A DNA stretch of 64,000 nt, from assembly GCF_004355225.1 (NCBI RefSeq), contig NZ_CP037933.1, positions 1,116,001-1,180,000 of the forward strand. The letters run 5' to 3'. The translations under genes were made by a program, and so were the position numbers. The stretch comes from Flavobacterium nackdongense (GTDB lineage: Bacteria; Bacteroidota; Bacteroidia; Flavobacteriales; Flavobacteriaceae). Numbering within the stretch: position 1 is the stretch's first letter; each line of letters opens with the position of its first letter. Positions 2,119 through 21,472 of the stretch are shown piece by piece. The notes under the pieces are model-generated. The model saw nothing but the letters and a program-made list of their open reading frames with translations, searched no databases and was not told the origin of the DNA.

Positions 2119-2130
2119 AAATATATAACG

Positions 2131-3291: not shown

Positions 3292-3317
3292 TTTTTAAAT
3301 AATAAAACCAATAGTAA

Positions 3318-3950: not shown

Positions 3951-3952
3951 TT

Positions 3953-5017: not shown

Positions 5018-5112
5018 TCCATATTTGAAAAACTATTCCAATACCTCATCTGGTTCTACTGGATTTTGTGTGAAAATCAAAACAATTAAAACTATAATCA
5101 CAACTATTTTTA

Positions 5113-5194: not shown

Positions 5195-5236
5195 CGAAAA
5201 AAAATAGAATGTTCACAACATTTCCAGTAGTACCAA

Positions 5237-5953
5237 TTACCTTGTCACTTCTTCTATCAAATAAAAGATAGATTTAAAATCGATGCCACTCATTCTTTCA
5301 AAACCTATTTCGCAAGTCCTGCTAGTTGAATAACCTTCTGTACAACTTTCAGGAATTTGAGCTTTTAAGTCTTTTAATCCGTGTTCGTTGAGTTCAGGAA
5401 CTAGGAATCCTCTATCACCTGCAAAACCACAACAATTACTATCAATCATTGTCACTTGATGCGCACAAAGTTGGGACAAAGCCAAAAGCTGGTCCATTTT
5501 TCCAATTTTTTTGACAGAACAAACCGGGAAAACCGCAACAGTATCTTTTTTATTTTTTACAGTCAAACGAGGCATCACATAATCCATCATAAATTCGATT
5601 GGATCCACGATTTTTAGGTTTTCCGAAAATTCTTCTTTTGAATGATAAAAACACGGACTCATATCATACAAAACGGGATATTTTCCGTTCTCCGACGCTT
5701 TCAATAGCGCTGTTTCCAGAGCGTTAGATTGCGAATGATTGGCTTTGGCAAAACCTTTACTAGAAAATGGCATTCCACAACACTGCGCATCCATTTCCTC
5801 GGGATAAATTATCGTAAAACCAGCTCGAACCAATAATTGATGGGTAAGTTCCGTCAATTGCAGATCATCTGCTGCTTGAAAACTATTTTTTCCCATACTT
5901 CTGTTGATACAAGAAGGGAAATACACTACTTTTAATTCGGAATTAGTATTCAT
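5237..5953 (-). CDS. CCG-domain Fe-S protein, C-terminal part of a split FAD/Fe-S oxidoreductase
   Basis: The 238 residues contain two cysteine-rich CCG motifs, DAQCCGMPF and DSNCCGFAGDRGF, as in GlpC/LldE/HdrB-type electron-transfer subunits. In many relatives the same segment is the C-terminal third of a single protein of about 940-970 residues, following an FAD-binding domain and a ferredoxin domain. Here those domains are in the gene at 6385-8487; together the two products add up to 938 residues. The start NTNSELKVVYFPSCINRSMG follows where the other product ends in PKGADKIKTL. The two chains probably form one complex, likely oxidising D-lactate or another 2-hydroxyacid. The substrate is not proven. 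Confidence 0.8.
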   Translation of the reverse strand: MNTNSELKVVYFPSCINRSMGKNSFQAADDLQLTELTHQLLVRAGFTIIYPEEMDAQCCGMPFSSKGFAKANHSQSNALETALLKASENGKYPVLYDMSPCFYHSKEEFSENLKIVDPIEFMMDYVMPRLTVKNKKDTVAVFPVCSVKKIGKMDQLLALSQLCAHQVTMIDSNCCGFAGDRGFLVPELNEHGLKDLKAQIPESCTEGYSTSRTCEIGFERMSGIDFKSIFYLIEEVTR

Positions 5954-6046
5954 TTTTAATGCTTTTGATTTGTCTTGTGGCTAAAAATTCAGTTGCGAAT
6001 TTTAAACCAGATACTTTTCACTTTTGAAACAAAATTATAAATAGTT

Positions 6047-6349
6047 TTAATTTGACCACTTATCTAACAAATCAACATAAAAATTTGTCATTTCACTAGA
6101 TTCTCCACTTTCTGTTAAACTGGCTACTTCAAGATTTATTAATAAATCAAATATTTCTTCTATTACTTCATCATCCAATTCAATTTTAAAAAAACTGGTT
6201 GTTAAATCATTTTTTCTATTATGATTTTCAGCTTTTGGTAATTCATTGTTATTTAGAATATCTAAAAGTTTATTTGAAATTTCTATTTTTTCAACTTTTG
6301 AAAGTTCATTTATTGTATTTATAATGGTAATATAATTAAGAGATTTCAT
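6047..6349 (-). CDS. Small unknown acidic protein inside the split oxidoreductase locus
   Basis: A 100-residue ORF, very AT-rich, acidic and helical in appearance (many Glu, Asp, Leu, Ile and Asn), with no signal peptide or recognised domain. It starts 35 bp after the stop of the FAD-binding gene and ends about 90 bp before the start of the CCG-domain gene, both on the same strand. Its base composition and its position between two halves of a normally continuous protein suggest an inserted gene. The start ATG at 6349 is the only reasonable one. Confidence 0.55.
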   Translation of the reverse strand: MKSLNYITIINTINELSKVEKIEISNKLLDILNNNELPKAENHNRKNDLTTSFFKIELDDEVIEEIFDLLINLEVASLTESGESSEMTNFYVDLLDKWSN

Positions 6350-6384
6350 TTTGAATTATTTTACAATTTTTTGGAAATACATAT

Positions 6385-8487
6385 TTACAGTGTCTTTATT
6401 TTATCGGCTCCTTTGGGCATTTCGGGAATCCATTTGGGTACTTTACCAAAACTAATAAAATGAATTCCATTCGATAATGTGGTCATAATTCGAGTTCCTA
6501 AAATAGAATGGAAAAAGGAAACCGCTTTCAATCCTACTCTCAAAACTGCGGTGGTTCCAGCCATAGAAGATCCAATATATTCTGCCACTTTTTTAGAACT
6601 GCCGTTCAGTTCGTTTGCCCTCCAAGTTTTTACAAATTTTCCCGTGTCGATATTCACGGGGCAAGCCAAGGCACAAAGTCCATCGGTGGCGCAGGTTTCA
6701 TCCAATTGATAGGTTACGTCTTTACGAATAGCGGCCAATCGGGTTGGATTCTCATTCGATTCTTCTAATCGGCTGATTTCTCTGGCAATCACGATGCGTT
6801 GCCGTGGCGATAAAGTCAAGCCTTCGGAAACACAATACGGTTCGCAAAAACCACATTCCATACATTTGTCAACGATGGCGTGGGATTCGGGCATTGGTTT
6901 TAAATTCTTGAGATGCGCTTTCGGATCAGGATTGATTAAAACATCGGGATTGATTTTATTATTCGGATCGAAAATAGTTTTGATGCGTTTCATAATTTCG
7001 TAGGCCGCAGTTCCCCATTCTTTCTCTACAAATGGGGCCATATTTCGACCTGTTCCGTGTTCTGCTTTTAGCGAACCATTGAAACGATCGACCACCAAAA
7101 TGGCTAATTCCGACATCAGTTTTTCGTACCGATCGACTTCGGTTTGGGTTGAAAAATCCTGGGAAAAAACGAAATGCAGATTTCCTTCTAAGGCGTGTCC
7201 GAATAAAACGGCATCGTGGTATTCGTATTTTTTGAATAAGTCTTTCAATGCCAAACAAGCCTCAGCCAATTGTGGCAATGGAAAAGCCACATCTTCAATG
7301 ATTACGGTTGTGCCATTTTTTCGAAGACCTCCGACTGTTGGCAACAGGCCTTTCCGAGCTTTCCAATTGAAATAATATTGTTTGGGATCAGACGTAAATT
7401 CATAATCGGTATAAGTCGGAATGGATTGTATTTGCAATCGAATCGCTTCTTGTTTTTGTTGTAAAACTTCCACAGTATTATCACGACATTCGACCAACAA
7501 AGCGCAAGCCGATTCGGGCAAGGTTTTAAAATAATCAGGAGCCGCAGGATCATTTTCCACCGAACGGATGGAGTCTCTATCCAATAATTCTACTGCTGCA
7601 ACCGGAGCAGATTTCAATAAAATCGTAGCATTGCAAGCGTCCTGAATCGTATTGAAAATGAGCAACGAACAGGATTTGAATTTTTCGTCAATCACCGTTT
7701 TGAAAGTCACATTCGAAATAAAGGCTAAAGTACCTTCGGAGCCGACCATCAGGTGTTTGATGATTTCAATTGGGTCTTCATAATCGACCAAGGCGTTGAT
7801 GCTGTACCCAGTAGTGTTTTTTATTTTGAATTTGTTTTTAATGAAATGATACAGCGATTCATCGTTTTTGATGGTATTTCTAAGACTTTCAATTTCTTGA
7901 ATTAAAGCCTTATGGCTGTTTTTGAAAGCCGCCACAGACTCAGCATCGGAAGTATCGAGCACCGTTCCATCGTTTAAAACTATTCGAATATCAGCTATGG
8001 TTTGATACGAGTTTTGAGCCGTACCGCAACACATTCCGCTGGCATTGTTCGCCACGATTCCGCCGATCATTGCTGCATTAATCGATGCAGGATCAGGTCC
8101 TATTTTCAATCCGTGAGGCGCCAAGAAAGTGTTCGCTCGCGAGCCAACAATTCCAGGTTCTAATTTAATTTTTTGATTGTTATCTAAAAGTTCAAAATTT
8201 TTCCAACCGTGTGTAGCGACCACCAAGACAGAATCCGTAATTGCCTGACCTGACAAACTGGTTCCTGCAGCGCGAAAAGTCAAAGCAATATTGAGCTTTT
8301 TGGCTTGTTTTATAATTTCGATTACTTCAGCTTCGTTATGCGCCAGAATGACAATTTCAGGAATCAATCTGTAAAAACTGGCATCGGTTCCGTATGCAAG
8401 AGTTTGCAAAGGATTGTCCAAGATTCGTTTTGGATCAATAAATTTCGATAAATTATCTTTTAACTTTTGATAAGACGGAGCTAGCAT
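6385..8487 (-). CDS. FAD-binding oxidase with ferredoxin domain (D-lactate dehydrogenase type), N-terminal part
   Basis: 700 residues. Residues about 35-215 are an FAD-binding type 4 (PCMH) domain with the typical FRAAGTSLSGQA and GGIVANNASGMCCGT segments; the FAD-linked oxidase C-terminal domain follows to about 520 (HALEGNLHF, GSLKAEHGTGRN). Cys clusters for 4Fe-4S centres are CMECGFCEPYC (542-552) and CATDGLCALACP (599-610). The family oxidises D-lactate, glycolate or D-2-hydroxyglutarate and passes electrons to quinone. The CCG domain usually found at the C-terminus is encoded separately at 5237-5953, with a 100-residue ORF in between. The split looks clean, with no frame remnant, so both halves may be functional. 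Confidence 0.85.
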   Translation of the reverse strand: MLAPSYQKLKDNLSKFIDPKRILDNPLQTLAYGTDASFYRLIPEIVILAHNEAEVIEIIKQAKKLNIALTFRAAGTSLSGQAITDSVLVVATHGWKNFELLDNNQKIKLEPGIVGSRANTFLAPHGLKIGPDPASINAAMIGGIVANNASGMCCGTAQNSYQTIADIRIVLNDGTVLDTSDAESVAAFKNSHKALIQEIESLRNTIKNDESLYHFIKNKFKIKNTTGYSINALVDYEDPIEIIKHLMVGSEGTLAFISNVTFKTVIDEKFKSCSLLIFNTIQDACNATILLKSAPVAAVELLDRDSIRSVENDPAAPDYFKTLPESACALLVECRDNTVEVLQQKQEAIRLQIQSIPTYTDYEFTSDPKQYYFNWKARKGLLPTVGGLRKNGTTVIIEDVAFPLPQLAEACLALKDLFKKYEYHDAVLFGHALEGNLHFVFSQDFSTQTEVDRYEKLMSELAILVVDRFNGSLKAEHGTGRNMAPFVEKEWGTAAYEIMKRIKTIFDPNNKINPDVLINPDPKAHLKNLKPMPESHAIVDKCMECGFCEPYCVSEGLTLSPRQRIVIAREISRLEESNENPTRLAAIRKDVTYQLDETCATDGLCALACPVNIDTGKFVKTWRANELNGSSKKVAEYIGSSMAGTTAVLRVGLKAVSFFHSILGTRIMTTLSNGIHFISFGKVPKWIPEMPKGADKIKTL

Positions 8488-8740
8488 CGCGATTGTATAT
8501 TATGTATTATTTGCCAAAGAAGTACATCATTAAAACTTCATTATGATTTAAAATAAGTCATAAGACAAGGATTTTTAGTTGTATCAGAAAGATTAGCATA
8601 GTGACTTTAAGCAAGCCCAATAATACAATATCGATACAGCAAGTTTGGGACAAAATAATTTCATTATGTTTTCTGACTCAAATTAATTTTTAAATTCAAT
8701 CCAAGTGAACTTCGATTAATAAATAGAGGATGAATTATTG

Positions 8741-9211
8741 CTATTTAGCGCAATCGACGGCTGAAAATTTATATTTCACGTTTTCAAAATCGATAGGAAC
8801 ACCTTTTTTAAAATAAGAAGTGCCTAAATAGGTCTCTATTGTACCATTTCCTAAAACAAGTTCGTTCCCCTTTCTTAAAAACGCCATCGGATTTTTGAAA
8901 ACGACTTTTTCATTGGTCCCTTGTATAAAACTATAATCCACAAATAGGGTATCGCCTTTATATTCACCAGCAATTTTACCTGTTTTTACAGGCATATCGA
9001 ACAATTTCATGTCCATATTCCCAGTCAATTTCCCGCTTTTCAAAGTGTTGATTTGAATGCTAACTGTGTCTTTTTCATAGATTGAAACATAGCACTGAAC
9101 GCTAACGGGTTTTTCCGCTACTGCCTGATCAGCGGCATTTTTTTGATTTCTGTTACAGCTTATAAAGCCTAAACAACACAAAAGTAAACAAGGAAGAATT
9201 CTATTTCTCAT
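8741..9211 (-). CDS. Lipoprotein of unknown function
   Basis: A 156-residue protein with a lipoprotein signal: a hydrophobic start and lipobox LGFISC with the lipidated cysteine at about residue 19. The mature part is beta-rich, with alternating GKLTGNMDM, GKIAGEYKGD and GNGTIETYLG segments, and ends in DCAK. No family was recognised. It is probably anchored in the cell envelope. The flanking gaps of 250 and 180 bp suggest that it is transcribed alone. Confidence 0.7.
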   Translation of the reverse strand: MRNRILPCLLLCCLGFISCNRNQKNAADQAVAEKPVSVQCYVSIYEKDTVSIQINTLKSGKLTGNMDMKLFDMPVKTGKIAGEYKGDTLFVDYSFIQGTNEKVVFKNPMAFLRKGNELVLGNGTIETYLGTSYFKKGVPIDFENVKYKFSAVDCAK

Positions 9212-9342
9212 TGCAGATTAAATTAAATTAGTAATTTCTGAAATTATCAGGGTAAATATAAAAAAATAGAGGCAAAAACGACCCAGTCGGTCACGAAATT
9301 TTCAACCTCAAAGAAGATTTTTAACAACAAAATAATCAAAAT

Positions 9343-9377
9343 AAAAAAAGGAGCCATTTAGAAATGGAAATGACTCC
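9343..9377 (-). terminator. Terminator of the cytochrome c gene
   Basis: Read on the minus strand, GGAGTCATTT and AAATGGCTCC (one G-U pair) form a 10-bp stem followed by seven T residues, 18 bp after the stop codon. This is a textbook intrinsic terminator. Confidence 0.85.
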
Positions 9378-9394
9378 TAATTGGTATTAAAAAA

Positions 9395-9799
9395 TTATTT
9401 TTTATTATTTAGCGCTCTAATATAATTGACCAATTGCCAACGTTGATCTTCGGTTAGCAATTCATCATAAGACGACATCGGCGGTTTTCCCACGGTAATT
9501 TTCCAGAAAATTTCACCATCGGTTTCATTTGGAATGTCTTTTAAAGCCAAAAAATTAGCTGGTTTATTATCCATACTTAAGGCCGCTTCTCCATTCCCTT
9601 TTCCTGTAAGACCGTGGCATAAAACACACATTTGTTCGTATATGATTTTTCCCTCTGCAGTCGCTTTGCTATTTCCAGCAAATGGATTTTTTAAACCCTT
9701 AGTATATTCGGGAACTGCCCAACTTTTTTGAGCAACAATAGTAGGACTTCCGAAAAACAGTAATACGATAGCTCCTAAAAACAAATAATTACTTTTCAT
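9395..9799 (-). CDS. Small periplasmic c-type cytochrome
   Basis: 134 residues with an N-terminal signal peptide (cleavage near IVAQ, residue 24). One haem-binding motif CVLCH (Cys58, Cys61, His62) is present, with a probable axial methionine in GKPPMSS (Met108) and the C-terminal helix DQRWQLVNYIRAL typical of class I cytochromes. It would carry electrons in the periplasm; the partner is unknown, though a cytochrome bd oxidase is encoded further along the window. It has its own terminator just downstream and is probably monocistronic. Confidence 0.88.
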   Translation of the reverse strand: MKSNYLFLGAIVLLFFGSPTIVAQKSWAVPEYTKGLKNPFAGNSKATAEGKIIYEQMCVLCHGLTGKGNGEAALSMDNKPANFLALKDIPNETDGEIFWKITVGKPPMSSYDELLTEDQRWQLVNYIRALNNKK

Positions 9800-10014
9800 T
9801 GTTTCAAAGTTTAAAATTTACATAGTAAAGATACTACAGTTTTTTCAAAAAATTACTATAATTATCACGAAATTTTTAAAAAAATGCGGATATATAACAA
9901 TTACTTGAATAAATGAATTCTCAATGATTACTGACAAAGGATCTAGTGGTCAATTTCATTCCGTATTAATGTTCCGTAGCGTGCTTAACAGTTATAAAAT
10001 AGTTAGTTTTAAAC

Positions 10015-10051
10015 ACAAAAAAACCGCAAAAGTAGACAACTGATGCGGTTT
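10015..10051 (-). terminator. Terminator of the gapN-like gene
   Basis: On the minus strand, AAACCGCA and TGCGGTTT form an 8-bp stem followed by a run of seven T residues. It lies 20 bp after the stop codon of the aldehyde dehydrogenase gene. Confidence 0.85.
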
Positions 10052-10070
10052 GGATTAGGTGGGTTAAACG

Positions 10071-11651
10071 CTATAAAATATAATCGGTATTGATAAAATT
10101 AGACTCTTTGCTATTGAGTAAATCTTGCAAGATTTCATTGTTGTACTGATTGTCTTTTGAAGCCACAAAAGTCCTGATTGAAAAAGAACGCAATGCATCG
10201 TGAATACTCAAGGTTCCCACTGCTGAATCTTTTCGACCGGTAAACGGAAATACATCGGGCCCTCTTTGGCACGAACTATTCAAATTGACTCTCGATACTA
10301 AATTGACCAAGGTATCGATAAGCGGTGCAATGGTTTTGATATTTTGGCCGAACAAACTTACTTGTTGACCATATTGTGATTCCGCCATATCATTGAGTGG
10401 TTCTTGAATGTTTTTGAATGCAATAATAGGTACGACAGGGCCAAATTGCTCCTCTTGGTATACTCTCATTTCTTTATTGATTGGATATAAAACGGCGGGA
10501 AATATAAAATTCTGTGAACGATCTCCCCCTTTATTGTTTAGCACTTTTGCTCCCTTTGATTTTGCATCGTCAATCAATTCCTGAATATAATCAGGTTTAT
10601 CCGTTTCAGGCAATGGAGTTAGAAAAACCGAAGGATCCCAAGGATTTCCATAAATTAACTCATCTACTTTTGCAGCAAATCGCTTATTGAATTCATCGAC
10701 TATAGATTCGTGTACATACAAAATTTTCAATGCTGTACAGCGCTGTCCGTTAAAGGATAAGGAACCCGCAACACATTCCTGAATGGCCAGATCTAAATTG
10801 GCATCAGGCAAAATTATGGCTGGGTTTTTGGCTTCTAATCCTAAAATCAAACGCAATCTATTTTTATTCGGATGTAAATCTTGCAAAGCAATAGCTGATT
10901 TACTGTTGCCTATCAATGCCAAAATCGAAATTTTTCCAGATTTCATAATCGGCGAAGCGACTTCACGACCACGTCCGAAAAGAATATTAATTACCCCTTT
11001 TGGAAAACTGCTTCGAAACGCTTCTAATAAAGGAGAAATCAATAATACCCCATATTTGGCAGGTTTAAAAATAACCGGATTCCCCATAATCAAAGCGGGA
11101 ATCAATAAAGTAAAGGTTTCATTCAAAGGATAATTGTAAGGACCTAAACACAAAACAACCCCTAATGGACCTCTACGAACCATCGCATTTATCCCTTGTA
11201 CTTTTGAGAAATGAGCACTTCGACTGTTCAACTCTTTGTAACTTTCGATAGTATCATAGATGTATTCGACCGTTCTGTCAAATTCTTTTTCGGAATCGCC
11301 CAATGTTTTTCCAATTTCCCACATCAAAAGTTTTACAACTTCAGTTCGCTGGGCTTTCATTTGGAAAACAAAATTCTCCATACATTTGATGCGATCCACG
11401 ACCTTCATTGTCGGCCATAAACCTTGACCATTGTTATAGGCTGAGGTGGCAGCGTCGACAGCTTCTATCGCTTCCTTTTCGCCCATAAAAGGGATTGTAC
11501 CCAAAAAAGTGGGTTCGTAATCCGCTGTTGATGATATGGTGGAATACACTGAAGTGCTTTTTCCAGTCCATTTGACTAAATCTCCGTTTACTAAATAAGT
11601 ATCTTGCACTAAAGGCGCATTAATTTGGTATTCCTGTGGAATTATATTCAT
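10071..11651 (-). CDS. gapN: NADP-dependent glyceraldehyde-3-phosphate dehydrogenase type aldehyde dehydrogenase
   Basis: A 526-residue aldehyde dehydrogenase superfamily enzyme. The catalytic cysteine is Cys305 in [10 protein letters not shown], the oxyanion asparagine is Asn173 in GPYNYPLNE, and the general base corresponds to Glu273 in [16 protein letters not shown] is characteristic of non-phosphorylating GapN, which oxidises glyceraldehyde 3-phosphate to 3-phosphoglycerate and makes NADPH. Substrate specificity cannot be proven from motifs, so another aldehyde is possible. The rhodanese gene ends 51 bp upstream and the two may be co-transcribed. A phosphorylating GAPDH is encoded separately at 24950. 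Confidence 0.75.
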
Positions 11652-11702
11652 TATTTATATGTGTAGAATTAATTATAGAAAAAAGCTGTAATACCTCCTT
11701 CT

Positions 11703-12014
11703 TTATGGAGAAACGATTTCGCCATCCCAGCCCAAAATTCCTCCTAACAAATTAAAAGCGTGATCAAAACCAAGGCTTTCCATTACTTCGCAAGCCTTCG
11801 CACTCCTCGCTCCCGAACGGCAGTATACATAATAATTTTTGGATTTGTCTAAGGCTTCAATTTTTTCAATAAACCCCTGCCCCTCATAAATATCGATGTT
11901 GATGGCATTTGAAATGATCCCTTCATTGCATTCATTTTCTGTTCTAACGTCTAAAATAACGGCGTTCGTATCGGCTTCATATTGTGAAACCCAATCTTCT
12001 TGTGTTAAGTCCAT
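11703..12014 (-). CDS. Single-domain rhodanese-like protein
   Basis: A 103-residue single rhodanese domain. The active-site loop is CRSGAR with Cys65 as the sulfur acceptor, after the strand YYVYC. The substrate-side LDVRTENE and the C-terminal LLGGILGWDG are typical of GlpE/PspE-like sulfurtransferases. There is no signal peptide, so it is cytoplasmic. It is encoded upstream of the gapN-like gene on the same strand. The physiological sulfur donor and acceptor are unknown. Confidence 0.88.
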   Translation of the reverse strand: MDLTQEDWVSQYEADTNAVILDVRTENECNEGIISNAINIDIYEGQGFIEKIEALDKSKNYYVYCRSGARSAKACEVMESLGFDHAFNLLGGILGWDGEIVSP

Positions 12015-12160
12015 AGTATCTTTTTTTTGTAAAAATAGGAAGTTTTATTTTAAAAAATAGAATGACAATCTTGATAATACGCTAAACATTCAAAGAAAAC
12101 GTTATCGTAAATTTAGAAATTTAACTTTTGAATATAATTTAACAAAAAATTAATATCTCG

Positions 12161-12174
12161 TTTGTATATACAAA
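12161..12174. promoter_or_regulatory. MarR operator 1
   Basis: TTTGTA-TA-TACAAA is a perfect palindrome. It covers the predicted -33 element (TTG at 12162-12164) of the downstream MarR gene. Confidence 0.7.
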
Positions 12175-12194
12175 TAAAAATAGTAATACATTTG
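12162..12194 (+). promoter_or_regulatory. Promoter of the marR-nitroreductase-yceI operon
   Basis: TTG (12162-12164) and TACATTTG (12187-12194) are separated by 22 bp, which fits the Bacteroidetes housekeeping consensus TTG-N17-23-TAnnTTTG. Both boxes are overlapped by the operator palindromes, so the repressor should exclude RNA polymerase. Confidence 0.65.
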
Positions 12195-12204
12195 TACCTA
12201 CAAA
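12191..12204. promoter_or_regulatory. MarR operator 2
   Basis: TTTGTA-CC-TACAAA repeats both arms of operator 1 exactly, starting 30 bp later (about three helical turns). It overlaps the -7 box. A further half-like TATACAAA lies next to the start codon. Confidence 0.7.
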
Positions 12205-12220
12205 TTACATATATACAAAT

Positions 12221-12682
12221 ATGAAAATTGAAGACGAAATAAAAAGTACAGTGCCTTTAGACAATTCCAAAAAAGTAATTTTAAATATCCTTTACACACA
12301 AAATGTGGTAACCGACAAATTAAATGAAATTTTGAAGCCTTACGATTTATCAGCTGAACAATATAATGTATTGCGAATATTAAGAGGTCAAAAAGGTTGT
12401 CCGGCGAATATGTGCTCTATTCAGGAGCGAATGTTAGCCAAAACGAGCAACACCACCCGATTGGTAGATAAATTATTATTGAAAGAGCTGGTCACAAGAG
12501 AGGTGTGTAGCGAAAATCGACGAAAAATTGAAGTGCTAATTACTACCAAGGGCCTAGAACTTTTATCTGAATTAGACCCAAAAATAAAGGAACACGAGCA
12601 TTCATTTGCCAAAAACTTAAATAGAGAAGAGTTAGAAATTCTCAACGACTTATTAGAAAAATATAGAAATCATTACAATTAA
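12221..12682 (+). CDS. MarR-family transcriptional regulator
   Basis: 153 residues with the MarR winged-helix core: LSAEQYNVLRILRGQKG, then the recognition helix around RMLAKTSNTTRLVDKL and the wing EVCSENRRKIEVLIT. It carries cysteines in GCPANMCS that could sense redox state, which is inference. The gene is autoregulated in all likelihood because two identical inverted repeats cover its promoter. A nitroreductase-like gene (13 bp on) and a YceI gene follow on the same strand, suggesting control of a redox or quinone-stress operon. Confidence 0.9.
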   Translation: MKIEDEIKSTVPLDNSKKVILNILYTQNVVTDKLNEILKPYDLSAEQYNVLRILRGQKGCPANMCSIQERMLAKTSNTTRLVDKLLLKELVTREVCSENRRKIEVLITTKGLELLSELDPKIKEHEHSFAKNLNREELEILNDLLEKYRNHYN

Positions 12683-12695
12683 TTTCAAATACACT

Positions 12696-13328
12696 ATGAA
12701 CACTTTTTTAGACCATCAAAACTGGAGATACGCGACAAAAAAATTCGATTCCTCCAAAAAAATTTCAAATCAAGATTTTGAGCTTTTATTGGAAGCGATT
12801 CGTTTGAGTTCCTCCTCTTACGGTTTACAACCCTATAAAATTCTTATCATTGAAAATCAAGATTTGAGAGCCAAAATTCAGCAAGCTGCTTGGGGACAGT
12901 CGCAAGTTGTAGACGCTTCTCATCTTCTAATTTTTGCCAATCAAACGGATATTAGTGATGCTCAAATCGATGAATTCTTCGAAAACACAAGCAAAACTAG
13001 AGGAATCGAAATAGAATCACTTGCAGGATATCAAGGTTTTATGAAAAGTAAAATCAATGAATTATCTGCTGATGCAAAAAACATTTGGAACTCCAAACAA
13101 ACCTATTTGGCCTTAGCCAATTTAATGAATGCTGCGGCCGAACTAAAAATTGATGTGACACCGATGGAAGGTTTTTCACCTGCCGACGTCAATGAAATAT
13201 TAGGACTAAAAGAACTAGGACTAAACGCATCACTACTAGCGCCTATCGGGTATCGCCACAGCGAAGATGCAACTCAACACTATAAAAAAGTCAGAAAATC
13301 AAAAGAAGAATTATTCATCACAATTTAA
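12696..13328 (+). CDS. NAD(P)H-dependent nitroreductase-family oxidoreductase
   Basis: A 210-residue flavoprotein of the NfsB/FRase I type. Typical segments are WRYATKKFDSSKKI (N-terminal FMN contact), LSSSSYGLQPYKILII, and the C-terminal MEGFSPADVNEILGL followed by APIGYRH. The family uses FMN and NAD(P)H to reduce quinones, nitroaromatics or related electrophiles. It sits 13 bp after the MarR gene and 28 bp before the YceI gene, so the three form an operon that is probably derepressed by an electrophile. Confidence 0.87.
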   Translation: MNTFLDHQNWRYATKKFDSSKKISNQDFELLLEAIRLSSSSYGLQPYKILIIENQDLRAKIQQAAWGQSQVVDASHLLIFANQTDISDAQIDEFFENTSKTRGIEIESLAGYQGFMKSKINELSADAKNIWNSKQTYLALANLMNAAAELKIDVTPMEGFSPADVNEILGLKELGLNASLLAPIGYRHSEDATQHYKKVRKSKEELFITI

Positions 13329-14021: not shown

Positions 14022-14052
14022 TTTGGATAATCAAATTTGATTTATATATTTG
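14022..14052 (+). promoter_or_regulatory. trp operon promoter
   Basis: TTTG (14022-14025) and TATATTTG (14045-14052) have a 19-bp spacer and match the Bacteroidetes sigma-A consensus closely. Transcription should start a few bases upstream of the leader ATG at 14067, giving a very short 5' end. Confidence 0.75.
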
Positions 14053-14066
14053 TGCAAGAAAATATT

Positions 14067-14117
14067 ATGAAAACAATTACAAACAATACTTGGTGGTGGA
14101 ATAATTTACGTCAATAG
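14067..14117 (+). CDS. trpL: trp operon leader peptide with three Trp codons
   Basis: The 16-codon ORF encodes MKTITNNTWWWNNLRQ and stops at TAG (14115-14117). Three consecutive TGG codons (14091-14099) are very unlikely by chance and lie 15 nt after the -7 box plus a short leader. It is followed by mutually exclusive RNA structures, an antiterminator pairing 14117-14123 with 14168-14174 and a terminator at 14157-14187. This is the layout of a transcription attenuator in which ribosomes stalled for charged tRNA-Trp allow transcription to continue into trpE. Confidence 0.9.
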   Translation: MKTITNNTWWWNNLRQ

Positions 14118-14174
14118 TCGTGAACAAAGCTCCCATAGTATAAACTATAAATACAAAAGGCTTGTCATCACGAC
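14117..14174 (+). promoter_or_regulatory. trp attenuator antiterminator pairing
   Basis: GTCGTGA (14117-14123), which begins at the last base of the leader stop codon, is exactly complementary to TCACGAC (14168-14174). The latter includes the terminator loop and the start of its 3' arm. A ribosome paused at the TGG codons leaves GTCGTGA free to pair and break the terminator; a ribosome at the stop codon covers it and lets the terminator form. Confidence 0.75.
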
Positions 14175-14187
14175 AAGCCTTTTTTTT
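14157..14187 (+). terminator. trp attenuator terminator
   Basis: AAGGCTTGTC (14157-14166) and GACAAGCCTT (14172-14181) form a perfect 10-bp stem with loop ATCAC, followed by a T run to 14187. It ends 47 bp before the trpE ATG. Confidence 0.9.
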
Positions 14188-14234
14188 GATTTATAAATTG
14201 AAATTTTTAGTCATCTGCCTATCAAATAATAAAA

Positions 14235-15635
14235 ATGAAACTATTTAAACTGCAAACCAAATACAAACAAATACTCGCTGACACGATTACACCGGTAAGC
14301 GTTTATTTCAAAATTCGGGATCGATTTCCGAATAGCTTACTTTTAGAAAGTAGCGATTATCACGGTAACGACAATAGCTTCTCGTACATCTGCTGTAATC
14401 CTATTGCATCAATCAAAATCGAAAACGAAACGATCTACAAAATCTTTCCTGACCAAACTACCGAAACCATCTTGATCGACTCCAAAACAGATATTCCGGA
14501 AGTCATTCAGGAATTTTCTGCACAGTTCCAATCGAAAAAAAATGATTTCAAATTCATCAATAACGGATTGTTTGGCTACATTTCATATGATGCCGTTCGT
14601 TATTTCGAAAAAGTGACGATCTCCAAAAAAGACGAACAAACCACTATTCCGGATGTCTTTTATGCCGTGTATCAAAACATCATTGCCATCAATCACTTCA
14701 AAAATGAAGCGTACATTTTCTGTCATAGTTTAGATGGGAAAAATAATATTTCGGAAATCGAACAATTATTACAATCTCGAAATATTGCATCCTACAAATT
14801 TAGCCGTGATGGCGAAGGTAGTTCTAATTTGACCGATGAAGAATTCAAACACAATGTTGCCTTAGCTAAAAAGCATTGCCAACGAGGCGATGTGTTTCAA
14901 TTGGTTTTATCCCGACGATTTACCCAAGGCTTCAAAGGGGATGAATTCAATGTGTACCGCGCCTTGCGGAGCATCAACCCCTCGCCTTACCTATTCTTTT
15001 TTGATTATGGTGATTTCAAAATATTTGGTTCTTCACCCGAAGCACAGATTATTGTCAAAAACCGAAAAGCCGAAATCCACCCTATTGCCGGTACGTTCAG
15101 AAGGACTGGCGACGATGAAAAAGATGCTGTTTTGGCCAAAAAATTATCGGAAGACCAAAAAGAAAATAGCGAACACGTGATGTTAGTCGATTTGGCTCGA
15201 AATGATCTGAGTCGTCACGGACACGGTGTTCAGGTAGAAAAATACAGAGAAATTCAGTTCTTCTCGCACGTGATTCATTTGGTTTCGAAAGTAACAGGGC
15301 AATTACACGAAAAAGCTACCGCTATGCAAGTCGTGGCCGATACTTTCCCAGCGGGGACTTTGAGTGGAGCGCCTAAACACAGAGCAATGCAATTGATCGA
15401 AGACTACGAAAAAACCAATCGTAATTTCTATGGAGGCGCCATCGGTTTTATGGATTTTGAAGGCAACTTCAATCACGCGATTATGATTCGAACCTTCTTG
15501 AGCAAAAACCACCAATTGCATTCGCAAGCGGGTGCTGGAATCGTAGCAAGTTCCGATGAAGAAAGCGAAATGCAGGAAGTGTACAATAAATTATTAGCGC
15601 TGAACAAAGCGTTAGACTTAGCGGAGAAAATATAA
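14235..15635 (+). CDS. trpE: Anthranilate synthase component I
   Basis: 466 residues. TrpE converts chorismate and ammonia (from TrpG) to anthranilate. Chorismate-binding motifs are present: HPIAGTFRRTGDDEKD, ENSEHVMLVDLARNDLSR, PAGTLSGAPKHRAM and YGGAIGFMDFEGNFNHAI. The N-terminal LLESSDYHGNDNS corresponds to the LLES tryptophan-feedback site, so allosteric inhibition by tryptophan is likely. It is the first structural gene after the attenuator. A palindromic repeat begins at the last base of its stop codon and separates it from trpG by 64 bp. Confidence 0.95.
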   Translation: MKLFKLQTKYKQILADTITPVSVYFKIRDRFPNSLLLESSDYHGNDNSFSYICCNPIASIKIENETIYKIFPDQTTETILIDSKTDIPEVIQEFSAQFQSKKNDFKFINNGLFGYISYDAVRYFEKVTISKKDEQTTIPDVFYAVYQNIIAINHFKNEAYIFCHSLDGKNNISEIEQLLQSRNIASYKFSRDGEGSSNLTDEEFKHNVALAKKHCQRGDVFQLVLSRRFTQGFKGDEFNVYRALRSINPSPYLFFFDYGDFKIFGSSPEAQIIVKNRKAEIHPIAGTFRRTGDDEKDAVLAKKLSEDQKENSEHVMLVDLARNDLSRHGHGVQVEKYREIQFFSHVIHLVSKVTGQLHEKATAMQVVADTFPAGTLSGAPKHRAMQLIEDYEKTNRNFYGGAIGFMDFEGNFNHAIMIRTFLSKNHQLHSQAGAGIVASSDEESEMQEVYNKLLALNKALDLAEKI

Positions 15636-15756
15636 GCCCCTTAACCCCCAAAGGGGGAACATTGGAAGGCTTAATTTACAACTTTAAAAAAAAAATAAAA
15701 TGAATAACAACAATACATCCGCAACAACAACTCCCCCTTCGGGGGCGGGGGGGGCT
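15635..15756. repeat. C/G-rich inverted repeat pair at the trpE-trpG junction
   Basis: The left copy (15635-15660) reads AGCCCCTTAACCCCC then AAAGGGGGAAC. The right copy (15729-15756), in reverse complement, gives AGCCCCCCCCGCCCCC then GAAGGGGGAGTT. Each copy has its own C5/G5 hairpin. The right copy lies inside the annotated trpG frame and encodes residues 10-19. The pair resembles REP-like intergenic repeats. Confidence 0.7.
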
Positions 15757-16314
15757 ATTTTAGTCATAGACAATTACGATAGCTTCACTTACAACTTGGT
15801 GCATTATCTAGAAGATTTGAATTGCGAAGTTACCGTTTACCGAAACGATGAATTCGATATCGACGAAATCTCGCATTTCGACAAAATATTGCTTTCGCCA
15901 GGACCGGGAATTCCTGATGAAGCCGGTTTATTGAAAGCTGTGATTGCCAAATATGCTTCAACCAAAAGTATTCTTGGTGTTTGCCTCGGACAGCAAGCTA
16001 TCGGAGAAGTTTTTGGCGGAACCTTGTCGAATTTAGATAAAGTCTATCACGGGGTTTCATCTATGGTAAAAACTTCGGTAGATGATGAACTTTTATTCGA
16101 AGGTTTAGGAACCGAATTCGAAGTAGGTCGATACCATTCGTGGGTGGTTGATGCCAATTTGCCTGATGTTCTTGAAGCCACCTCATTCGACGAAAATGGA
16201 CAAGTAATGTCGTTGCGTCACAAAACATTTGATGTGCGTGGCGTTCAGTTTCACCCAGAAAGCGTTTTAACACCAAACGGGAAGAAAATTTTAGAAAACT
16301 GGCTGAAGAATTAG
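15700..16314 (+). CDS. trpG: Anthranilate synthase component II (glutamine amidotransferase)
   Basis: 204 residues of class I glutamine amidotransferase. It supplies ammonia from glutamine to TrpE. The catalytic triad is Cys95 (GVCLGQQA) with His185 and Glu187 (VQFHPES). The family body starts at ILVIDNYDSFTYN, about residue 20. The preceding residues (MNNNNTSATTTPPSGAGGA) are unusual: the last half is translated from an inserted C/G-rich repeat at 15729-15756, and the first half is Asn/Thr-rich. No other ATG, GTG or TTG in this frame is better placed, so the start at 15700 is kept. The extension is probably disordered and tolerated. Confidence 0.92.
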   Translation: MNNNNTSATTTPPSGAGGAILVIDNYDSFTYNLVHYLEDLNCEVTVYRNDEFDIDEISHFDKILLSPGPGIPDEAGLLKAVIAKYASTKSILGVCLGQQAIGEVFGGTLSNLDKVYHGVSSMVKTSVDDELLFEGLGTEFEVGRYHSWVVDANLPDVLEATSFDENGQVMSLRHKTFDVRGVQFHPESVLTPNGKKILENWLKN

Positions 16315-16430
16315 TGTTCTATTTTCTGTTAGTAGTAATCAGTACCCTTTTGACAATAAAAAAAACGGATTTGAACGTGCTGGAAATACAGAATCTATGT
16401 GGATTTATTCCGGAAACGAACATTGAATAC

Positions 16431-16459
16431 GTAGAGACGTTGCATTGCAACGTCTCTAC
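16431..16459. repeat. Palindromic repeat of the GTAGAGACGTTGCA family, copy 1
   Basis: GTAGAGACGTTGCA-T-TGCAACGTCTCTAC is a perfect inverted repeat with 14-bp arms and a one-base centre. It lies in the 164-bp gap between trpG and trpD, 19 bp before the trpD ATG. Related copies are at 18948-18966 and 19044-19070. Confidence 0.9.
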
Positions 16460-16478
16460 AGCACCAAAAACAATAAAA

Positions 16479-17471
16479 ATGAAAACAATATTAAACAGAC
16501 TTATCAACCACGAAATGCTTTCGAAAGAAGAAGCCAAAAGCGTTTTGTTCAACATTTCCAAAGGAAGTTATAATCCCAGTCAAATTGCTTCATTTTTGAC
16601 TGTTTATATGATGCGAAGCATCAGTATCGAGGAATTAGCCGGCTTTCGCGAAGCCTTGCAAGAATTGTGTATTAAAGTCGATTTATCCGATTATAATACC
16701 ATCGATTTATGCGGAACTGGTGGTGACGGTAAGGACACTTTCAACATCTCGACTTTGGCTGCTTTTGTCGCTGCAGGAGCGGGAATTAAAGTGGCAAAAC
16801 ACGGAAACTATGGCGTTTCATCCATTTCTGGTTCGAGTAATGTATTGGAAAAAGTAGGGGTAAAATTCAGCAATGACAGTGATTTTTTGAAAAAATGTAT
16901 CGACCAAGCTGGAATTTGTATTTTGCACGCCCCTCTATTTCATCCTGCAATGAAAAACGTAGGCCCTATTCGAAAAGAATTAGGAATAAGAACGTTTTTT
17001 AATATGTTGGGGCCAATGATCAATCCCTCTTTTCCTAAAAACCAATTGGTCGGCGTTTACAACCTAGAATTGGCTAGAAAATATGCGTATTTATACCAAA
17101 ACACGGACATCAATTACACCATTTTACATTCATTAGAAGGTTATGATGAAATCTCTTTGACCTGTCCAACCAAAACGATTACAAAAAGTATGGAAGGCAT
17201 TTTGAAGCCAGAAGATTTTGGCGTTCGCCAATTGTCACAAAACGAAATCGAAGGCGGAAAAACCATCGACGAATCGGCGGCAATGTTTATGAATATCATT
17301 TCAGGAATCGGTAGTGAAGCTCAAAATAATGTAGTTTGTGCCAATGCGGGAATGGCCATTGCGACGGTCACCAAATGCAGTCCGCTGGAAGGTTTTACAA
17401 TTGCCAAAGAAAGTTTAGTTACTAAAAAAGGATTGGCAGCTTTAAAAAAATTACAAGAATTAAGTAAATAA
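16479..17471 (+). CDS. trpD: Anthranilate phosphoribosyltransferase
   Basis: 330 residues from the ATG at 16479 (MKTILNRLINHEMLSKEEAK), the normal family length and N-terminus. An upstream extension to 16314 is open but reads through a palindromic repeat and was rejected. TrpD transfers the phosphoribosyl group of PRPP to anthranilate. The PRPP and Mg-binding region LCGTGGDGKDTFNIST, KHGNYGVSS and LGPMINPSFPKNQLVGVY are all present. It is the third enzyme gene of the trp operon. Confidence 0.94.
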   Translation: MKTILNRLINHEMLSKEEAKSVLFNISKGSYNPSQIASFLTVYMMRSISIEELAGFREALQELCIKVDLSDYNTIDLCGTGGDGKDTFNISTLAAFVAAGAGIKVAKHGNYGVSSISGSSNVLEKVGVKFSNDSDFLKKCIDQAGICILHAPLFHPAMKNVGPIRKELGIRTFFNMLGPMINPSFPKNQLVGVYNLELARKYAYLYQNTDINYTILHSLEGYDEISLTCPTKTITKSMEGILKPEDFGVRQLSQNEIEGGKTIDESAAMFMNIISGIGSEAQNNVVCANAGMAIATVTKCSPLEGFTIAKESLVTKKGLAALKKLQELSK

Positions 17472-17481
17472 AATAGTTTCA

Positions 17482-17532
17482 AGTTTAAGGTTTAAAGTTG
17501 ATGGAATATTGAGCAACTTTAAACTTTAAACT
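17482..17532. repeat. AGTTTAAAG-type inverted repeat at the trpD-trpC junction
   Basis: AGTTTAAGGTTTAAAGTTG (17482-17500) pairs with CAACTTTAAACTTTAAACT (17514-17532) with one mismatch. A close relative sits between folD and ffh at 44028-44076, so this is a dispersed family. Confidence 0.75.
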
Positions 17533-17562
17533 TTAAACAAAGAAAACATTAAACAAATACTA

Positions 17563-18345
17563 ATGAATATATTAGACAGAATCATCATTGACAAAAGGCG
17601 AGAAGTCATTCTTAAGAAATCCATCATTCCCGTTTCGCAATTGGAAGCTTCGGTTTTTTTTGAGAAAAACGCCCTTTCTTTGAGCGAAAATTTGCGACAC
17701 AGCCCATCGGGAATCATCGCCGAACACAAACGTCGTTCACCTTCGAAAGCTGAAATTAATTATAGTTTCACCGTGGAAGAAGTGGTAAAAGGTTATGAAA
17801 ATGCGGGCGCTTGTGGGATTTCAGTCTTAACGGACGGAAAATACTTTGGTGGTTCATTAGACGATTTACTATTGGCCAGAGCTTCAGTGAACATTCCGTT
17901 ATTGCGAAAAGAATTCATTGTAGATGAATACCAAATCCTCGAAGCTAAAGCCCACGGAGCCGATTTAATTTTGCTGATTGCTGCCGTTTTGACTCGTGAA
18001 GAAATCAAAAGTTTATCCGAATTTGCCAAAGGTTTAGGTCTGGAAGTTTTATTGGAAGTGCATAATTTAGAAGAATTAGAGAAATCGATAATGCCTAGCT
18101 TAGATATGATTGGCGTGAACAACAGAAACCTAAAAACTTTCGAAGTCAGCTTGGATTTCAGTAAAAAATTGGCAGACCATATTCCAAATGATTTCGTAAA
18201 AGTTTCCGAAAGCGGTATTTCGTCCATCGAAGCCATCAACGAGCTAAAACCTTTTGGTTATAAAGGTTTCTTGATTGGAGAAAACTTTATGAAAACCGAC
18301 AATGCCGGCGAAGCTGCAATGGAATTTATTTCAAAATTAATTTAA
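17563..18345 (+). CDS. trpC: Indole-3-glycerol-phosphate synthase
   Basis: 260 residues of a (beta/alpha)8 barrel. TrpC closes the indole ring from CdRP. Diagnostic segments are IIAEHKRRSPSKAEIN (substrate phosphate and catalytic Lys), LRKEFIVDEYQILEAKAHGAD (catalytic Lys), LEVHNLEE, GVNNRNLKTFEV and SESGI. It is a stand-alone TrpC, not fused to TrpF, which is encoded 91 bp downstream. The gaps on both sides are filled by inverted repeats of different families. Confidence 0.95.
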   Translation: MNILDRIIIDKRREVILKKSIIPVSQLEASVFFEKNALSLSENLRHSPSGIIAEHKRRSPSKAEINYSFTVEEVVKGYENAGACGISVLTDGKYFGGSLDDLLLARASVNIPLLRKEFIVDEYQILEAKAHGADLILLIAAVLTREEIKSLSEFAKGLGLEVLLEVHNLEELEKSIMPSLDMIGVNNRNLKTFEVSLDFSKKLADHIPNDFVKVSESGISSIEAINELKPFGYKGFLIGENFMKTDNAGEAAMEFISKLI

Positions 18346-18436
18346 ACACAAAGAACACGGAGGAAGCACGAAGCACACAAAGCTTTGTGAACTTTTCGCC
18401 TTCTTTGCGAACTTTGTGGTTAAAAAACAGTAAACT
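18346..18436. repeat. CACAAAG-rich repeat at the trpC-trpF junction
   Basis: The 91-bp gap is made of words such as ACACAAAGAACACGG, CACAAAGCTTTGTG and TTCTTTGCGAACTTTGTGG, forming an imperfect inverted repeat with an AAAGCTTT centre. A similar kind of sequence fills 61626-61695. Confidence 0.6.
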
Positions 18437-19081
18437 ATGAAACTCAAAATCTGCGGAATGAAATATCCCGAAAATATCCTCGAAATAGGCGCGCTCCTAC
18501 CCGATTATATGGGCTTTATATTCTGGGAGAAATCGGCTAGATATTTTGATGGTGCAATGCCTGATTTACCAAAATCAATCAAGAAAGTCGGGGTTTTTGT
18601 GAATGCTTCTTTGGATGAAATTTTAGATAAAATTCAAAAATACGATTTGCAAGCAGTTCAATTACACGGACAAGAATCGGTTGAATTTTGCAAAAACTTA
18701 AAAAAAAATATACCAAACCTGACAGATATCATAAAAGTTTTTTCAATTTTAGATACCTTTGACTTTGCAGAATTAAAACCCTTCGAAAAGGTGTGTGATT
18801 TTTTCCTTTTTGACACCAAGGGAAAATTGCCCGGAGGCAACGGAACCGCCTTCGATTGGAAGGTTTTGGAAAATTATCCGTCAACCAAACCGTTTTTTCT
18901 GAGTGGAGGAATTGGAATAGAAGAAATAAAAAAATTGGTAGAGATGATGCAATCCGACGTCTCTACAAAAAAATTACCCATTCACGCCATCGATGTGAAC
19001 AGTAAATTTGAAATAGAACCCGGATTAAAAAATATACAATTATGTAGAGACGTTGCAATGCAACGTCTCCAAAATAAATAA
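18437..19081 (+). CDS. trpF: Phosphoribosylanthranilate isomerase carrying repeat-derived peptides
   Basis: 214 residues. TrpF performs the Amadori rearrangement of phosphoribosylanthranilate to CdRP. The start KICGMK holds the catalytic cysteine (Cys6), and the catalytic aspartate is in [11 protein letters not shown] (Asp126); SGGI binds phosphate. Two parts are unusual. Residues 171-177 (MQSDVST) are translated from a half copy of the GTAGAGACG palindrome, and the end [10 protein letters not shown] (203-212) from a full copy that nearly fills the space before trpB. The core motif [15 protein letters not shown] lies between them intact, so the enzyme may still work. Confidence 0.93.
18948..18966 (-). 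repeat. Half copy of the GTAGAGACG palindrome inside trpF, copy 2
   Basis: Read on the minus strand it begins GTAGAGACGTCGGATTGCA, matching one arm of the family with an altered centre. It is in frame within trpF and encodes residues 171-177. Confidence 0.7.
19044..19070. repeat. GTAGAGACGTTGCA palindrome at the end of trpF, copy 3
   Basis: GTAGAGACGTTGCA-A-TGCAACGTCTCC repeats the 16431-16459 element except for the last bases. It supplies the last residues of TrpF and lies 18 bp before the trpB ATG. Confidence 0.85.
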
Positions 19082-19088
19082 AAAAAAT

Positions 19089-20270
19089 ATGTCATACAAC
19101 GTTAACGAAAAAGGTTATTACGGAGAATTTGGTGGAGCATTCATACCTGAAATGTTGTATCCCAATGTAGAGGAACTACGCCAAAACTATTTAAAAATTA
19201 CAGCAGAACCTGAATTCCAGGCAGAATTTGATGCCTTGCTCAAGGATTATGTAGGTCGCCCGACTCCGCTGTATTTTGCGGAACGACTGTCTAAAAAATA
19301 CAATACTAAAATCTACCTCAAAAGAGAAGATTTATGCCATACTGGTGCTCATAAAGTAAACAATACAATTGGGCAAATTTTATTGGCCAAACGATTGGGC
19401 AAAACCAGAATCATAGCCGAAACTGGCGCAGGTCAACATGGTGTTGCCACAGCAACGGTTTGTGCTTTGATGGGTTTGCAATGTATCGTGTACATGGGAG
19501 AAATCGACATCAAACGTCAAGCTCCAAATGTGGCTCGAATGAAAATGTTGGGAGCCGAGGTTCGTCCGGCACTTTCAGGTTCACGAACGCTAAAAGATGC
19601 TACCAACGAAGCCATTCGCGATTGGATCAACAATCCCGTGGACACTTATTATATCATCGGCTCGGTGGTTGGCCCGCATCCTTATCCTGATATGGTGGCG
19701 CGTTTTCAGAGTGTCATTTCCAAAGAAACAAAAATACAATTGCTAGAAAAAGAAGGACGAGAAAATCCTGATCACGTCATAGCCTGCGTTGGTGGCGGAA
19801 GCAATGCTGCGGGTGCTTTTTACCATTATTTAGATAATCCTGAGGTCAATATTATTGCTGTTGAAGCAGCGGGTTTGGGTGTAGATTCGGGCGAAAGTGC
19901 AGCCACTTCTGCTTTGGGCAAAATAGGTGTCATTCACGGTAGTAAAACCTTGCTGATGCAATCAGCTGACGGTCAAATTACCGAACCCTACTCCATTTCA
20001 GCCGGATTAGATTACCCTGGAGTGGGACCTATGCACGCCAATTTATTCGCTTCAGGTCGAGCAGAATTCATCTCGATTACCGATGAACAAGCCATGCAAT
20101 TTGGATTAGAACTTTCACAACTCGAAGGGATCATTCCAGCGATAGAAAGTGCCCACGCCTTTGCGGTTTTAGAACAAAAAAAATTCAAACCTTCAGACCT
20201 CGTCATTATCAATTTATCGGGACGTGGTGACAAAGATTTGAACACCTATATTGATTATTTCAAATTATAA
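19089..20270 (+). CDS. trpB: Tryptophan synthase beta chain
   Basis: 393 residues from the ATG at 19089 ([20 protein letters not shown]). A TTG start at 19053 inside the palindrome was rejected because the family begins at this ATG. TrpB condenses indole with serine using PLP. The PLP lysine is in HTGAHKVNN, the phosphate loop is [12 protein letters not shown], and EDLCHTGAH and [11 protein letters not shown] are typical of the TrpB1 type that pairs with TrpA. TrpA is encoded 440 bp downstream, after an inserted AIG2-like gene. Confidence 0.96.
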
Positions 20271-20294
20271 TTGACTTTAATAGAACAGTAGAAT

Positions 20295-20627
20295 ATGATA
20301 AAATTATTCACCTACGGCAGCTTGCAACACGATGATGTGCAAGAAAATCTTTTCGGTAGAGTTTTACACGGCACTCCCGAAAGAATCATTGGATATGAAT
20401 TGAAAAGAATCCAAATCGAAGAAGAATTTGGAATTGTCCATTATCCGGTCATTGTAGAAACCGAAAACCCAGCCGATTTCATTGATGGAATGGTCTATAA
20501 CGTAACAGAAAAAGAACTTCATCAAGCCGATTTGTACGAAGGAATGCATTACAAAAGAGTTGAAGTACACTTGAACTCCAACCAAAAAGCCTGGGCTTAT
20601 AGCGCTGCCGATTTAACTCACTTTTAA
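20295..20627 (+). CDS. Gamma-glutamylcyclotransferase (AIG2)-family protein
   Basis: A 110-residue protein with the family signature FTYGSLQHDDVQ at the N-terminus (the YGSL substrate loop) and the catalytic acid region LHQADLYEG. Members cleave gamma-glutamyl amines or peptides to 5-oxoproline; the substrate here is unknown. It lies between trpB (24 bp) and trpA (83 bp) on the same strand and so is almost certainly co-transcribed with the trp operon, although it has no known role in tryptophan synthesis. Confidence 0.85.
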   Translation: MIKLFTYGSLQHDDVQENLFGRVLHGTPERIIGYELKRIQIEEEFGIVHYPVIVETENPADFIDGMVYNVTEKELHQADLYEGMHYKRVEVHLNSNQKAWAYSAADLTHF

Positions 20628-20710
20628 ATAAAACATCAAATCTGAAAATGATTTTTCGAGATTTGACAACTTTTAAAAAGTGGTCAAATCTAATTTGTAA
20701 AAACATATAA

Positions 20711-21472
20711 ATGAACAGAATCAATCAAAAATTACAAGCAAATACCAAAATACTTTCTATCTATTTTTCAGCTGGATATCCGAATTTAAACGATACAGTA
20801 CAAATTATACAAGACCTTGAAGCAAAAGGTGTCGATATGATCGAAATCGGTTTGCCATTCAGTGATCCGTTGGCCGATGGTCCCACCATTCAAGAGAGTT
20901 CCACCCAAGCTTTATACAACGGAATGACCACCCAAGTTTTGTTTGACCAACTCAAAGACATCCGAAAAAAAGTTTCCATTCCATTGGTGATTATGGGGTA
21001 TTTTAATCCGATGCTGCAATATGGAGTGGAAAATTTCTGCCAGAAATGTGCCGAAATTGGCATCGATGGCCTAATCATTCCAGACCTTCCTGTTGACGTG
21101 TATGCTGACGAATACAAAGCCACTTTCGAGCAATACGGACTCAAAAACATCTTCCTGATTACACCTCAAACTTCGGACGAGCGCATTCGTTTTATCGACA
21201 GCGTATCGGACGGATTTATTTATATGGTAAGTTCGGCTAGTGTTACGGGTTCCCAATCTGGTTTTGGAAGTACACAAGAAAATTATTTCAAACGCATCGC
21301 CGATATGAACCTGAAAAATCCTCAGATAATCGGTTTTGGAATTAGTAATAAGGAAACCTTCAATCAAGCCACGCAATTTGCCAAAGGCGCAATTATAGGA
21401 AGTGCTTTCATTACAAATTTGACTGAGAATGGAGTTGAAAGTATTGGGGAATTTGTAAAAGCGATTCGATAG
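20711..21472 (+). CDS. trpA: Tryptophan synthase alpha chain
   Basis: 253 residues of a TIM barrel that cleaves indole-3-glycerol phosphate to indole and passes it to TrpB. The catalytic glutamate and aspartate are in MIEIGLPFSDPLADGPTIQ, and the phosphate loops are in YMVSSASVTGSQ and GFGISNKE. It is the last gene of the trp operon and is followed by a strong terminator. Confidence 0.96.
   Translation: MNRINQKLQANTKILSIYFSAGYPNLNDTVQIIQDLEAKGVDMIEIGLPFSDPLADGPTIQESSTQALYNGMTTQVLFDQLKDIRKKVSIPLVIMGYFNPMLQYGVENFCQKCAEIGIDGLIIPDLPVDVYADEYKATFEQYGLKNIFLITPQTSDERIRFIDSVSDGFIYMVSSASVTGSQSGFGSTQENYFKRIADMNLKNPQIIGFGISNKETFNQATQFAKGAIIGSAFITNLTENGVESIGEFVKAIR

Follow-up and report, generated by a model that had tools for sequence, protein, structure and literature searches.

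A Bacteroid-trp leader with the features of a ribosome-mediated attenuator precedes the trp operon of Flavobacterium nackdongense

The window analysed here is a stretch of 64,000 nucleotides (nt) from Flavobacterium nackdongense (contig NZ_CP037933.1, positions 1,116,001 to 1,180,000). At 14022–14234 it holds a leader region that ends directly before trpE, the first of a run of tryptophan (trp) biosynthesis genes on the forward strand. Our re-reading of the letters bore out what a first-pass annotation had stated about this sequence, namely a short open reading frame (ORF) with the run Trp-Trp-Trp, a terminator and a pairing between GTCGTGA and TCACGAC. The features of the locus are listed below.

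14045–14052, forward strand: TATATTTG, matching the TAnnTTTG –7 box (sequence; consensus from the text of PMC9723704)
14067–14117, forward strand: leader ORF MKTITNNTWWWNNLRQ, 16 codons, ATG at 14067 to stop codon TAG at 14115–14117 (sequence and relatives)
14091–14099, forward strand: three Trp codons, TGG TGG TGG (sequence; Trp run conserved in relatives)
14105–14110, forward strand: strand 1 of a predicted competing (1:2) hairpin, partner 14119–14124 (fold and comparison of loci)
14117–14123, forward strand: predicted antiterminator 5′ strand, GTCGTGA (sequence, shuffles and fold)
14127–14131, forward strand: second part of the predicted antiterminator, AAGCT, partner GGCTT at 14159–14163 in the terminator 5′ arm (minimum-energy fold of 14113–14176)
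14155–14187, forward strand: intrinsic terminator with a stem of 12 base pairs (bp), 14155–14166/14172–14183, loop ATCAC and T-run 14180–14187 (sequence, fold and alignment)
14168–14174, forward strand: predicted antiterminator 3′ strand, TCACGAC, formed by the terminator loop and the first 3 nt of the 3′ arm (sequence and shuffles)
14235–15635, forward strand: trpE, the first gene under the putative control; best NCBIfam match trpE_most (E 1.1e-132, 443.4 bits, under the curated cut-off of 517.7)
15700–21472, forward strand: remaining operon, trpG, trpD, trpC, trpF, trpB, an ORF of 110 amino acids and trpA (ORFs; trp genes by NCBIfam match)

Positions 14047–14166 (forward strand) matched the whole model (1–131) of the Rfam family RF01692, Bacteroid-trp, scoring 67.5 bits where the gathering score is 49 (Rfam 15), with E = 1.1e-7 for the 2 kb searched, the only match above the cut-off in the 4.2-Mb genome. 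The model stops inside the 5′ arm of the terminator; terminator and antiterminator therefore lie partly outside it. Bacteroid-trp was published in 2010 by Weinberg et al., whose Table 1 grades the motif as probably RNA, probably cis-regulatory and not a riboswitch (PMC2864571). Rochat et al. (2019) named the element upstream of the F. psychrophilum trp operon and drew a comparison with the E. coli leader (PMC6414381), and a transcriptome study of F. psychrophilum presents strong indications of attenuation by leader peptides ahead of amino-acid operons (PMC9723704). The main text of Naville and Gautheret (2010) does not mention Bacteroidetes (PMC2965389). The literature searched yielded no description of the terminator and antiterminator anatomy of Bacteroid-trp, which the supplements of PMC2864571 and PMC9723704, outside that search, may draw. 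The window element is thus a known one in another genome, ordinary for these bacteria and not a new kind of regulator. It resembles the family in scoring over the threshold along the whole model and in placing a Trp leader before a trp operon, it has the same name and place as the F. psychrophilum leader, likewise compared with that of E. coli, and it is no different in kind, although its stop codon comes two codons earlier than in most relatives.

Within the leader, GTCGTGA at 14117–14123 and TCACGAC at 14168–14174 are exact complements, and when the segment around the stop codon was shuffled 5000 times, only 13 shuffles paired as well as the real sequence with the loop and 3′ arm of the terminator. 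Folding of 14022–14240 gave z = –2.33. In the lowest-energy antiterminator computed before the 3′ arm is complete (–15.0 kcal/mol in total), a second helix, 14127–14131/14159–14163, joins the first. The TAnnTTTG consensus is placed at –12 to –5 (PMC9723704), and together with TATATTTG this position puts the predicted transcription start near 14057, which would give a 5′ untranslated region (UTR) of about 10 nt. What the locus displays is what would be looked for in a ribosome-mediated attenuator: a short leader, predicted to be translated, with tandem codons for the amino acid that the following genes make (three TGG, conserved), and a terminator with a mutually exclusive antiterminator in sequence and computed fold. 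Like other Bacteroid-trp elements, it sits upstream of tryptophan biosynthesis genes, with trpE at 14235 and the other trp genes after it.

Of 199 genomes sampled from the genus, 129 had an RF01692 match at E ≤ 0.01; for the family the count was 231 of 299 and for the phylum 47 of 395, and matches above the cut-off were present in 126, 184 and 38 of the same samples, respectively; the three draws share genomes, and the search filters lose weak matches. The matches in the genus and family, with the TAnnTTTG box, fit a host in Bacteroidota. When 26 genomes of the genus were searched for TrpF, all 19 that carry the element had it, as did 3 of the 7 that lack the element, so that absence of the element often goes with a missing pathway.

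For comparison, 146 loci (L001–L146) were drawn from the Rfam-model matches, mostly the best scoring and a part of all matches. Exclusion of L002, a reverse-strand match under the cut-off, left 145, and a Trp-Trp (WW) leader with a terminator was found in 141 of these; by our rules L108, L126 and L141 lacked the leader and L084 the terminator. The first-pass annotation had named relatives as the place to check its proposal, and on this count the check was passed. Numbers refer to loci rather than genomes, a few genomes having given two. The Trp run comprised three codons in 137 of the 141 loci and two in the other 4, a TAnnTTTG sequence lay upstream in 127 (raw count), and TrpE homology followed in 131, some of the other 10 stretches being too short to judge.

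The hexamer TCGTGA, contained in the antiterminator strand, was present in 124 of the 141 loci and absent from 17. In all 124 it lay 17–19 nt behind the Trp run (17 nt in 1, 18 in 107 and 19 in 16), a constancy expected if a ribosome stalled at the Trp codons sets the switch. In contrast, its start, counted from the first base of the stop codon, ranged from –29 to +11 nt, so that the Trp-codon-to-antiterminator distance is what has been conserved and the stop codon position is what varies. The stop is the TGA inside TCGTGA in 90 of the 124 loci; the offset of +3 seen in the window recurs only in L098 (2 of 124), the peptide ending two codons earlier.

Pairing between this strand and the terminator is likewise widespread. 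The best run reached at least 6 pairs in 133 of the 141 loci, with a mean score of 16.8 against 10.0 for shuffled strands, and of the 124 loci with TCGTGA, 118 carried its exact complement, TCACGA, in the terminator hairpin. Alignment A1 comprises 79 of the 141 loci, with near-duplicates, distant loci and most loci of the CFRN type excluded. In its 79 rows the terminator covaried, with 97.9% of cells paired and three pairs changed on both sides; the loop, 3′ arm and T-run are outside the Rfam model used to choose the loci. The 7-bp antiterminator helix paired in 93.7% of cells, and the antiterminator including the second helix in 86.7%, compared with 22.5–43.1% when slid. The second helix is partly conserved (77.0% of cells paired), its middle pair being broken in 52 of 79 rows. 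A shift in register was also apparent: 32 loci with T before and A after TCGTGA have T in the loop (4 exceptions), 67 loci with G before it have A in the loop (3 exceptions), and 7 loci are of other kinds. On a TrpE tree only two changes of this register are supported, too few for an independent-pairs test. Several diverged loci pair with changed letters on both sides: L145 over 11 bp (0 of 300 shuffles as good), L127 over 9 bp (15 of 300) and L062 over 8 bp (27 of 300). A 7-bp pairing occurs in L066 and L138 (14 and 10 of 300). In four loci from another family of the class (L131, L132, L135 and L137) the strand after the stop codon pairs over 8 bp with the terminator 5′ arm (7–18 of 300), as in E. 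coli, and not with the loop and 3′ arm.

A segment upstream of the antiterminator strand can pair with it, in a further hairpin that would compete for the strand. At least 4 bases of the strand paired upstream in 131 of the 141 loci, compared with 72.9 expected when the sequence between the Trp codons and the strand was shuffled, and the mean energy was –4.45 kcal/mol against –1.73 for those shuffles. The geometry paired in 77.3% of cells over the 124 loci with TCGTGA, a recount that includes the CFRN-type class, versus 20.6–53.1% when slid by 1–4 nt. A1 has U-A as the outer pair in 35 rows and C-G in 34, and 0 of 500 shuffles reached the covariation score of 0.199; sliding the hairpin by –3 gave a higher score, 0.241, yet fewer paired cells (62.7% vs. 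80.2%). The Rfam consensus likewise draws a hairpin across this region, with several non-standard pairs when applied to the window sequence. A competing hairpin is therefore likely present in most members, with a putative role as the 1:2 hairpin of an attenuator.

Taken together, these features make the window element very probably a ribosome-mediated transcription attenuator of the trp operon, a Bacteroid-trp member with a predicted response to tryptophan, much as the first-pass annotation had proposed from the Trp run, the antiterminator strand and the terminator. Transcription would start about 10 nt before the leader ATG, and a ribosome would translate the 16-codon leader. If charged tRNA-Trp were scarce, the ribosome would stall at the Trp codons and 14117–14131 would stay free; this strand could then capture the terminator loop and the start of the 3′ arm (14168–14174), here also part of the 5′ arm (14159–14163), and polymerase would read into trpE. 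With plentiful tryptophan, a ribosome at the stop codon would cover 14117–14123, the terminator would form and transcription would end before trpE. Lack of translation could have the same outcome, the 1:2 hairpin hiding the antiterminator strand. A ribosome covers about 12 nt past the first base of its A-site codon. By this measure its edge would lie at about 14103–14109 with a Trp codon in the A site, leaving 14117–14131 free, and at about 14127 with TAG in the A site, covering 14117–14123. The earlier suggestion that a ribosome at the stop blocks the strand is in keeping with these distances, and such coverage would be expected in most of the layouts seen among relatives.

Several results weigh against this interpretation or limit it. 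Covariation of the antiterminator was not above column-keeping shuffles (its score was reached by 48 of 500 in the 79 rows), a lack of signal attributable to a helix that hardly varies; of the covarying stems for which the first-pass annotation had advised a search, covariation was clear for the terminator and suggestive for the 1:2 hairpin, and none was seen for the antiterminator in those rows. Six of 15 diverged loci (L128, L129, L133, L136, L140 and L144) showed no pairing beyond chance (76–236 of 300 shuffles as good). The finished terminator is also the more stable fold, at –19.0 kcal/mol compared with –15.0 with the 7-bp antiterminator enforced and the strand free; the switch must therefore be kinetic, with the antiterminator having to form first to win. 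Because the loci were chosen with the Rfam model, conservation inside that model is partly built in. As for the 1:2 hairpin, its stability does not exceed that of whole-segment shuffles (mean z –0.1), the 16 CFRN-type loci misfit its geometry (31.2% of cells), and independent changes are few: the outer pair has 4 supported changes on the TrpE tree (7 on all branches), where the partner on average followed suit in 2.5 and at no point moved against the change (p 0.25–0.5). Finally, 10 kb of sequence holds 16 terminator-like sites, this terminator included, against 8.6 (standard deviation 3.6) in shuffles; taken alone, the terminator is weak.

This abundance of terminator-like sites in AT-rich sequence would suit the simplest alternative, a constitutive terminator that happens to follow a chance short ORF before trpE. 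Such an arrangement would not account for a leader, a spacing and a complementary strand that are conserved across the family, nor for a curated RNA family covering the element, and we regard it as having almost no chance of being correct. A T-box or a tryptophan-binding riboswitch governing the terminator without translation would fit a structured leader ahead of a biosynthetic operon in general terms; the 8 Rfam matches at E ≤ 1 to 13000–15000 included no T-box or riboswitch family, Weinberg et al. mark the motif in their Table 1 as not a switch (PMC2864571), and the Trp codons with their fixed distance to the strand would be left unexplained, which makes this option highly improbable.

The first-pass annotation had itself favoured a specially compact attenuator, in which the antiterminator starts on the stop codon and no 1:2 or separate pause hairpin is needed. 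The first letter of GTCGTGA in the window is indeed the last base of TAG, and the 1:2 hairpin is modest, at –4.4 kcal/mol. Comparison with E. coli MG1655 (L147), however, disclosed lengths that equal or exceed those of E. coli: 113 nt from ATG to T-run versus 107, 65 nt from stop codon to T-run in both, and 17 nt from the Trp codons to the first paired antiterminator base versus 14. Only the distance from the first base of the stop to that paired base is shorter (2 versus 5), placing the window strand 3 nt nearer. The start on the stop codon holds for the window but is no general design, since the stop position varies and 2 of 124 loci share the layout. A candidate competing hairpin, 14105–14110/14119–14124, is present and partly conserved, with a putative role in polymerase pausing, and the claim that none was needed is not supported. 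The compact design is accordingly very unlikely, and we rejected it together with the mere terminator and the T-box or riboswitch.

The attenuator favoured here shares with E. coli trpL a tandem-Trp leader, a competing antiterminator and an intrinsic terminator, in addition to the equal stop-to-T-run distance. It differs in having three Trp codons where trpL has two, and in its main antiterminator helix, which in the computed fold pairs with the loop of the terminator and the beginning of its 3′ arm instead of the 5′ arm. We hold a more tentative proposal at somewhat below an even chance: Bacteroid-trp could be a late-deciding variant of the trp attenuator, with the strand 18 nt (17–19) behind the Trp codons regardless of the stop, capture of the loop and first 3′ arm bases, a 5′ UTR of about 10 nt, ribosomes that do not use Shine-Dalgarno pairing, and close following of polymerase by the ribosome. 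As capture involves the loop and 3′ arm, the choice would fall with polymerase almost at its release point, and with so short a 5′ UTR and no Shine-Dalgarno pairing, the ribosome would have to load at once and follow closely. Bacteroidia ribosomes do not recognise Shine-Dalgarno sequences (PMC9976891). Attenuation read by the ribosome works only if a ribosome trails polymerase closely, which would make the element a convenient natural reporter of coupling in the phylum and, if the late-deciding proposal is true, natural evidence for transcription-translation coupling in Bacteroidota. The comparison across many genomes places a Trp leader, predicted to be translated, before tryptophan genes in these bacteria.

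The element appears to head different trp gene orders, with loci outside the family leading with trpB or trpD instead of trpE. Inspection of translated starts identified the next gene as trpB in L062, L066, L127 and L144 (genome G072) and as trpD in L131, L135 and L136; in L062 and L066, trpE lies about 1.2 kb further on, behind trpB. In one genome (G170) the element is present twice on one strand, at a distance of about 3.9 kb; the copy L139 precedes trpE, and the copy L005 has no TrpE homology in the following 1.48 kb.

Within the window operon, the 110-amino-acid ORF between trpB and trpA (20295–20627) matched nothing in NCBIfam at E ≤ 1e-10. At 15733–15754, in the first codons of the trpG ORF, an inverted repeat of 9 pairs, 7 of them G-C, stands out as very rich in G+C from the AT-rich DNA around it. 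A 29-nt palindromic repeat (GTAGAGACGTTGCAATGCAACGTCTCTAC and variants) is present in the window at 16431–16459, 18938–18966 and 19044–19072; allowing up to 2 mismatches, 19 sites were counted in the genome compared with 0 for a control, and a literature search with the letters of the motif found no paper. One copy overlaps the end of trpF. Another lies within trpF, where 21 of 21 aligned relatives show a gap of 3 to 10 residues, so this copy appears to have inserted in frame into the gene of an enzyme.
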